IMG/VR virus record: IMGVR_UViG_3300020370_000011
Coordinates: 1-41,738 of that record
Source: a virus
DNA length: 41,738 bases
Reading direction: 5' to 3' (one strand)
The notes below the pieces were generated by a model. The model saw only the letters and a program-made list of their open reading frames with translations. It did no database searches and was not told the DNA's origin. Positions 19,842 to 20,812 of this stretch are shown here, piece by piece (position 1 is the first letter of the stretch; every line of letters starts with the position of its first letter). The translations under genes were made by a program, and so were the position numbers.

Positions 19842-19854
19842 TTAATTTATAATG

Positions 19855-19866
19855 TATGACACAGGC
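19855..19866 (+). repeat. 12-bp inverted repeat, left arm (TATGACACAGGC)
   Basis: TATGACACAGGC lies immediately before the gp26 ribosome site (GAAAGGA). Its exact reverse complement GCCTGTGTCATA begins 1 nt after the gp26 stop codon at 20622. The arms are 6/12 GC in a strongly AT-rich region, so a chance match at such exact gene borders is unlikely. They could pair in the gp26 mRNA and affect initiation or frameshifting. Confidence 0.75.
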
Positions 19867-19877
19867 GAAAGGAAATT

Positions 19878-20621
19878 ATGGCTTTACCCACCATTGAAAC
19901 GCCAATCCATGATATTTTTTTAACATCACTTGATAAAAAAATCAAGTATAGACCATTTTTAGTCAGAGAAGAAAAAATATTATTGATGGCAATTGAAAGT
20001 AATGATGAAAAAGAAATGTATGAAGCTATGAAAACAATTTTGAAAAATTGTATTCTAGAAAAAAACATTGACGTTGAATCGTTACCCATATTTGATGTGC
20101 AATTTTTATTTCTTCAACTCAGAGCAAAATCTGTAGGAGAAGTAGCAGAAGTTACACTTAAACACCCTAATGGTAAAAATAAAAACGGAGAAGAGTGTGA
20201 CGGCATACAACCAATTAATATAAATCTGAATGAGGTTAAACCAATCATACCAGAAAATCATTCTAAAGTAATTAGATTGAGTGAAAAAATTGGTGTATCT
20301 ATGATGTATCCCACTTTAGATTTTTTTAAAAAAATAGATGACATGCAAACTCAAGAAAAAGGTGTTGTCGAATCTCTATTCGATTCTATTGCCAATTCAA
20401 TAGAATATATCTATCAGGGTGAAGAGATATTCTATGCAAATGAACATTCAAGAGAAGAATTATTAGATTTTTTAAACAGTCTTAATAATACGCAATTTGA
20501 AGAATTGCGAAATTTCTTTTCATCAATGCCATCTATTCAACATAAAGAAACATATACCTGCCCTAAATGTGGCAGTCAAGAAGAATTAACACTTAGTACG
20601 GTAGAAGATTTTTTCGCATAA
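19878..20621 (+). CDS. 26: Baseplate hub assembly protein gp26 (tail assembly chaperone, short product)
   Basis: A 247-residue member of the T4 gp26 baseplate family. The start MALPTIETPIHDIFLTSLDK followed by KIKYRPFLVREEKILLMAIE is the usual signature. About residues 70-100 (LPIFDVQFLFLQLRAKSVGE) and a C-terminal Cys pair (YTCPKCGSQEELT, about 227-240) are conserved; the CxxC may be half a zinc site. Gp26 is needed for hub assembly in T4 and is not in the mature virion. With the adjoining frame and the tape measure gene next, it has the layout of the lambda G/GT chaperones. Ribosome site AAAGGA lies just upstream. It ends at TAA 20619, 3 nt after a T-TTT-TTC slippery sequence. Confidence 0.92.
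   Translation: MALPTIETPIHDIFLTSLDKKIKYRPFLVREEKILLMAIESNDEKEMYEAMKTILKNCILEKNIDVESLPIFDVQFLFLQLRAKSVGEVAEVTLKHPNGKNKNGEECDGIQPININLNEVKPIIPENHSKVIRLSEKIGVSMMYPTLDFFKKIDDMQTQEKGVVESLFDSIANSIEYIYQGEEIFYANEHSREELLDFLNSLNNTQFEELRNFFSSMPSIQHKETYTCPKCGSQEELTLSTVEDFFA
20609..20615 (+). other. Probable -1 programmed frameshift site T TTT TTC
   Basis: In the gp26 frame the bases read GAT TTT TTC GCA TAA. T-TTT-TTC fits the X-XXY-YYZ slippery heptamer exactly in phase. After a -1 slip the next codon is CGC at 20615, and the frame stays open to TAA 20810-20812. The extended product would be 311 residues against 247 for gp26. The 12-bp inverted-repeat arm begins 7 nt downstream and may serve as a stimulator. 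Confidence 0.75.
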
Positions 20622-20812
20622 GCCTGTGTCATAATACGCTTGAAAATTATTTCATTACCAACTTTAATATGATGCAACATCATAAATATTCATTGACAGA
20701 GTTGGATAATTTAATACCGTTTGAAAAAGAAATTTATGTCAATTTATTAGTGAGTCATATAAAAGAAGAAAATGAAAAAATAAGAGACCAACAAGCACAT
20801 TCTAGAAGGTAA
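20615..20812 (+). CDS. 51: gp51-like tail assembly chaperone extension, -1 frame of gp26
   Basis: This 65-codon frame lies -1 to gp26 and adds RISLCHNTLENYFITNFNMM, then QHHKYSLTELDNLIPFEKEI, and ends IRDQQAHSRR. The LxxYFxTNFxMMQHHKYSL pattern resembles the small hub-assembly protein encoded after gp26 in marine T4-like phages and the T part of gpG-T chaperones. The recognisable sequence begins upstream of the first ATG in this frame (20669), and that ATG has no ribosome site, so synthesis by frameshifting from gp26 is the simplest reading. T4 encodes gp51, a hub assembly catalyst, at this place. The stop is 1 nt before the tape measure ATG. Confidence 0.75.
   Translation, partial: RISLCHNTLENYFITNFNMMQHHKYSLTELDNLIPFEKEIYVNLLVSHIKEENEKIRDQQAHSRR
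20622..20633 (+). repeat. 12-bp inverted repeat, right arm (GCCTGTGTCATA)
   Basis: This is the exact reverse complement of the arm at 19855-19866 and starts directly after the gp26 TAA, 7 nt 3' of the slippery heptamer. It is also coding in the -1 frame (…LCHN). Long-range pairing with the gp26 leader would place a stable duplex at the usual distance for stimulating -1 slippage. Confidence 0.75.

Follow-up and report, generated by a model that had tools for sequence, protein, structure and literature searches.

The viral DNA analysed here, a stretch of 41,738 nucleotides referred to as the window, carries a gene of the T4 gp26 type that is bracketed by a short inverted repeat. One arm stands ahead of the ribosome-binding site of the gene and the other one directly behind its stop codon, close to a heptamer which might allow ribosomes to slip into the -1 frame. 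This raises the question whether two strands separated by the length of a whole gene pair with each other in the mRNA and, if so, what such a helix would be good for. In long-tailed phages, -1 frameshifting in chaperone genes is widely conserved, T4 being an exception (PMC5009743). For T4-like phages, a mechanism other than frameshifting was proposed by Vladimirov et al. (2022), as far as the title of that work and the text citing it in PMC10885494 indicate. In bacteria and phages, stimulators of frameshifting are looked for in the tens of bases that follow the slip site; the predictor PRFect, for example, folds windows of 50 and 100 bases (PMC10885494).

The gp26-gp51 locus and its inverted repeat

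The product of the bracketed gene belongs to the T4 gp26 sequence family, with E-values of 3e-58 for PF12322 (T4_baseplate) in Pfam and 3e-62 for phrog_150 (baseplate hub). At the position of the heptamer, the related gp51-type loci listed feature TTTTTT followed by C, T or A. The -1 frame matches phrog_634 (baseplate hub assembly catalyst, gp51) with an E-value of 3e-28, and this match sets in with its first residues, just past the heptamer. In the window, the frame opens 12 nt upstream of the heptamer and contains no ATG, GTG or TTG before codon 20 downstream of the heptamer. Thus, lacking a start codon near its conserved beginning, the frame can be entered there only by a shift. Among 12 loci tested, candidate starts in the -1 frame were located upstream of the heptamer in L095 and L064, on both sides of it in L043 (several) and shortly after it in L019 (some). 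As far as can be read from the sequence, the arrangement is the layout of tail-assembly chaperone frameshifting; neither an assay nor proteomics is available. In the gpG/gpGT pair of phage lambda and its counterparts, a slippery heptamer likewise marks the end of a short chaperone gene, to whose product a small C-terminal part from the -1 frame is fused by frameshifting. The present case differs in concerning gp26 and gp51 of T4-like phages and in a presumed stimulator helix, one strand of which lies ~760 nt upstream.

In the records of cultured relatives, gp26 and gp51 are entered as separate genes (L307, P-TIM40; L308, Mosig; L309, S-SKS1), and the annotated gp51 starts well past the heptamer in P-TIM40 and Mosig. 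As a consequence of the separate annotation in these three records, the conserved residues directly after the heptamer are missed.

Table 1. Positions of the repeat arms and of the translation signals around gp26 in the window.
Feature	Position	Strand	Remarks
Left arm TATGACACAGGC in the gp26 leader	19855..19866	+	Ends 11 nt upstream of the gp26 ATG, just ahead of AAGGA
Core TGACACAGGC of the left arm	19857-19866	+	Unchanged in 27/27 clade members; distance to the downstream gp26 ATG 6-17 nt
Shine-Dalgarno-like AAGGA of gp26	19869..19873	+	Read from the sequence; outside the duplex in the window
gp26	19878..20621	+	T4-type baseplate hub / tail-assembly chaperone, 247 aa; ATG at 19878, TAA at 20619-20621
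Slippery heptamer T_TTT_TTC (-1 shift)	20609..20615	+	X_XXY_YYZ type, in correct phase relative to gp26
gp51-type domain in the -1 frame	20615..20812	+	Reached only by frameshifting; phrog_634 match
Spacer GCATAA, 6 nt	20616..20621	+	Includes the gp26 stop codon; 6-nt spacing identical in 27/27 clade members
Right arm GCCTGTGTCATA	20622..20633	+	Exact reverse complement of the left arm; reads (A)GC CTG TGT CAT A.. = Ser-Leu-Cys-His in the -1 frame

The original prediction of a 12-bp repeat which brackets gp26, with its second arm directly past the stop codon and near the heptamer, proved exact in sequence and coordinates. The right arm begins at the base following the gp26 TAA, its first base being the seventh nucleotide past the heptamer, which leaves a spacer of 6 nt. 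The length of such a repeat alone proves nothing. The window comprises 12 perfect inverted repeats of at least 12 bp within 1 kb, with 11.1 being expected from first-order Markov sequences, and chance cannot be excluded from the window by length. Only the G+C content is unusual, as one repeat of this class with at least six G/C is found in the window vs. 0.1 expected. Accordingly, the possibility of chance was tested by conservation. The core TGACACAGGC occurs once per strand and nowhere else in the record of the window and in 9 further records of 11-84 kb (10 records). A short-query search judged by coverage and identity revealed the exact arm in no cultured phage, and among bacterial genomes no more than isolated, scattered matches in unrelated bacteria were obtained. 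The one match from an Rfam covariance-model search lay on the opposite strand, was of chance level and stayed well below its gathering score.

Conservation and predicted pairing of the two arms

Relatives of the locus were collected by protein searches as well as with DNA patterns that represented the right arm or alternative codings of it. One of the DNA-pattern searches selected for the right arm, two of the protein searches did not, and a left-arm pattern, applied in one search only, brought no locus which was absent from the other searches. Both arms were present in 27 of the 230 distinct gp26-51 loci obtained, either arm in 0 of the other 203, and loci with a single arm did not occur. The two-arm loci form one monophyletic clade (local support 1.0) without exceptions, in which the identity of the fused protein drops to as low as 47%. 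Judged by this distribution, with both arms being kept in 27/27 clade members vs. 0/203 other loci, the repeat is not a product of chance. The gp26 genes of L008 and L009, for example, share only 50% amino-acid and 63% DNA identity with that of the window, and both arms are identical. The left arm is non-coding and the leader sequence surrounding it is not conserved in the clade. The distance of this arm to the ATG varies (6, 11, 12, 15 or 17 nt), while that from the heptamer to the right arm is always 6 nt. As far as the collections show, no member of the clade has been cultured. In L107, whose gp51 seems more distantly related, a right arm AGCCTGTGTCAT follows the heptamer; the left arm cannot be checked there because the contig stops short of the gp26 leader.

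Two other readings of the left arm were rejected. A TATAAT box is situated just upstream of it in the window (19848-19853) and in L001, which might place the arm near the 5' end of the transcript. Still, this box is not common to the clade and a promoter at the left arm was consequently dismissed. A short upstream reading frame starting from the NTG of the arm, whose first base is A, G or T, is unlikely to be coding, as the third positions of its would-be codons (ACA, CAG) are invariant and the ends of the frame differ.

Throughout the clade, the right arm reads AGC CTG TGT CAY (Ser-Leu-Cys-His). The fixed codons include rare ones, AGC accounting for 2.7% of the Ser and CTG for 1.8% of the Leu codons in the remainder of these genes. 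Only a few codons past the arm, synonymous sites vary freely. Other codons for these four residues are used by around 25 loci that do not belong to the clade, and the left arm is found in none of them. Going by this codon choice, the right arm is under selection on its RNA sequence, with the reservation that one of the locus searches had selected for the right arm.

Independent variation of the arms among relatives would have refuted the original prediction. This was not observed, the core being invariant and the flanking pairs changing mostly in step or to G-U. As the 10-bp core TGACACAGGC/GCCTGTGTCA is invariant in both arms, compensatory changes are absent over most of the helix and covariation is confined to two flanking pairs. 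In the 18 distinct rows, the first flanking pair is G-C (8), A-U (6), G-U (2) or unpaired (2; A/C in L121 and U/U in L095), and the second one is U-G, U-A or C-G in 16, being broken in L088 and L106. Shifts of the first pair between A-U, G-C and G-U accompany the CAT/CAC alternation of the His codon. In 6 rows, both bases of this pair have changed, and 9 of the 13 non-Watson-Crick cells in the two flanking pairs are G-U. The covariation score of 0.113 (shuffled mean 0.081) was reached by 7 of 500 shuffles, kinship being ignored, and on the tree the A-U/G-C changes correspond to one or two independent double changes. Covariation thus appears modest; it supports pairing and would not prove it alone. 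The length of the helix ranges from 10 to 16 bp in the clade, with 14 bp in L112 and 16 bp (AATCATGACACAGGCT) in L109, which is located in the same record as L100.

Free folding of 881 nt of the window resulted in the full helix, with pair probabilities of 0.65-1.0, none of the ten core pairs falling below 0.95. The comparison of many loci made use of minimum-energy folds, computed without constraints for the leader, gp26 and 60 nt of gp51, and all 10 core pairs were recovered in 27/27 members, with duplex energies of -19.6 to -26.7 kcal/mol. The pairing that had been suggested to close the gp26 mRNA into a loop is therefore the predicted minimum-energy fold in every clade member. In all 27, the predicted helix starts 6 nt past the heptamer, or 5 nt if there is one additional pair. 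The 6-nt spacer falls into the range of 5-9 nt usual for -1 stimulators (PMC5009743), and the predicted duplex stands, as anticipated, at the distance typical of such elements. Such folding shows only that nothing in the mRNA is predicted to compete well with the helix, since translating ribosomes are ignored. A search for other leader-to-site pairings in the other lineages revealed nothing beyond chance. In L052, outside the clade, the minimum-energy fold pairs the leader with the region past the heptamer by 19 pairs without a long exact match, which may be chance.

Local hairpins, the predicted long-range helix and its possible roles

In the other lineages, the 45 nt past the heptamer are more strongly folded than shuffled sequence (mean z -1.17), in comparison to -0.03 deeper in gp51 (p 2e-11). 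For the clade, the corresponding mean is +0.18 (p 7e-6 against the other lineages). Both p-values ignore kinship. A z below -1.5 was reached by 38% of the other loci vs. 10% in the control, and an obvious hairpin is not present in every locus. Clear local hairpins past the heptamer are featured by L084 (GGGCTCTC TCAC GAGAGCCT), L086, L197 and L259, and the one of S-SKS1 (L309) amounts to -15.0 kcal/mol. The stems in these sister gp26-51 loci begin mostly 3-6 nt past the heptamer. Local folding analysis did not reveal any such hairpin in the clade. The sister loci (S-SKS1, L084, L086, L197) share the same heptamer with the clade and have both hairpin strands close to it, whereas the partner strand of the clade resides in the leader. 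According to the folding models, the family often carries a local structure at the position typical of stimulators; the clade has lost it, and the long-range helix stands in its place. This replacement of hairpin by helix is the strongest pointer to a function.

Hence, a long-range helix between the 5' leader and the recoding site has probably replaced a local stimulator of -1 frameshifting, a view that is without any data from frameshift assays, probing or proteomics. The two arms would pair in the gp26 mRNA and form a helix of 10-16 bp that closes a loop of ~755 nt, 6 nt downstream of the heptamer. A ribosome finishing gp26 would run into this helix while T_TTT_TTC occupies its P and A sites, and pause. 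In a fraction of passages it would slip back by one base, giving rise to a gp26-gp51 fusion beside plain gp26, i.e., to a long and a short form of the chaperone. The helix would take over the role of the local hairpin in related phages, with its partner strand at the far 5' end, before the ribosome site of gp26. A duplex acting as frameshift stimulator, as put forward originally, is supported by the conservation of the arms, by the folds in 27/27 members and by the local structure in relatives without the helix; the stimulating effect itself is inferred from the position and from the replacement of the hairpin. Formation of the helix in cells, a rise in frameshifting and production of the fusion protein are inferred as well. 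One of the points against the stimulator is the closeness of the left arm to the ATG, which forces the helix and initiating ribosomes into competition.

The helix might be real and nevertheless serve mainly to control the initiation of gp26, by covering the leader and limiting the binding of 30S subunits, with ribosomes reaching the end of gp26 reopening it. The left arm does lie 6-17 nt before the ATG in every clade member, and in leaders of the L008 type (L008, L009, L088, L093, L104) the only Shine-Dalgarno-like AGG is located inside the arm, whose end is 6 nt away from the ATG. In the WIN-like and L100-like members, however, the Shine-Dalgarno sequence lies between the arm and the ATG and stays outside the duplex. 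This renders a pure initiation block less likely, and the shielding of the leader, which had also been proposed, holds only partly for the same reason. Moreover, the distance between arm and ATG is variable while the one to the heptamer is fixed, and control of initiation leaves unexplained why the local hairpin is missing just in the clade. Such control is rather improbable as the main role of the helix. As a side effect, some influence on initiation can hardly be prevented, most of all in the L008-type leaders. One and the same helix could also stimulate frameshifting and throttle initiation, in which case ribosome traffic would determine how much fusion is made relative to plain gp26. This follows from the position of both arms and extends the stimulator function without excluding it. 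Still, it is no more than a tentative idea, for which direct evidence is lacking, and a steric effect that cannot be avoided has not necessarily been selected as a function. Spelled out as a two-way switch, which remains speculative and is regarded as doubtful, the helix would form when the leader is free of initiating ribosomes, raise frameshifting and hold back initiation, and would be reopened by ribosomes at the end of gp26. The closed-loop mRNA would in this way set the ratio of short to long chaperone by ribosome traffic.

Two exact inverted copies with an invariant core would look just alike if the arms were inverted sites for a DNA-binding protein, or if they were kept alike by recombination between the copies. 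Nevertheless, the motif is found nowhere else in the 10 records, by which a general DNA motif is rejected, the G-U share among the non-Watson-Crick flanking cells (9/13) suits RNA and not a symmetric DNA site, and placement and spacing follow translation signals. An origin at the DNA level is therefore very unlikely. Even less can be said for chance or for coding conservation of gp51 alone. Although a repeat of this length is to be expected by chance and the right arm is coding, the contrast of 27/27 to 0/203 loci and the fixation of rare synonymous codons are hardly conceivable on this basis, which is already refuted by the conservation of the non-coding left arm.

Relation to known frameshift elements

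For the long-range stimulator favored here, a limited search of open papers revealed no counterpart in phages or bacteria and none with the partner strand in a 5' leader. Long-distance frameshift elements are known from plant RNA viruses, with the partner located 3' of the site (PMC5009743; PMC10602861). In barley yellow dwarf virus, dianthoviruses and umbraviruses, a distant part of the same RNA likewise pairs just past the shift site, and in the best-known case it does so with a stem loop 6 nt 3' of this site (PMC5009743). However, the partner in these viruses is kilobases away on the downstream side and interacts with a local stem loop, whereas the one described here lies upstream in the 5' leader, without a local stem and in a bacterial host. 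A downstream partner pairing with the loop of a local hairpin, the criterion of the plant-virus type, is accordingly absent from the clade. The frameshift element of the class 2 umbravirus-like RNA CY1 is subject to several long-distance interactions (PMC10602861), which resembles the present case. Still, CY1 is an RNA virus translated by eukaryotic ribosomes, its element adopts multiple conformations, and some of its long-distance pairs weaken the stimulator. Furthermore, frameshift regions of coronaviruses take part in long-range stems (PMC11326378).

If the proposed replacement is true, a stimulator can have its pairing strand relocated upstream by the length of a gene, into the 5' leader, and such an arrangement can be inherited stably. 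The natural swap from local hairpin to long-range helix makes the question whether a stimulator has to be local directly testable by means of two short arms. Besides, a clear -1 frameshift signature is added to gp26/gp51 of marine T4-like phages, which are annotated as separate genes in the records inspected. Apart from the clade, strong local hairpins or long-loop stems directly behind the heptamer were noticed in L084, L086, L197, L199, L259 and L309, and these are apparently undescribed frameshift stimulators of T4-like phages.
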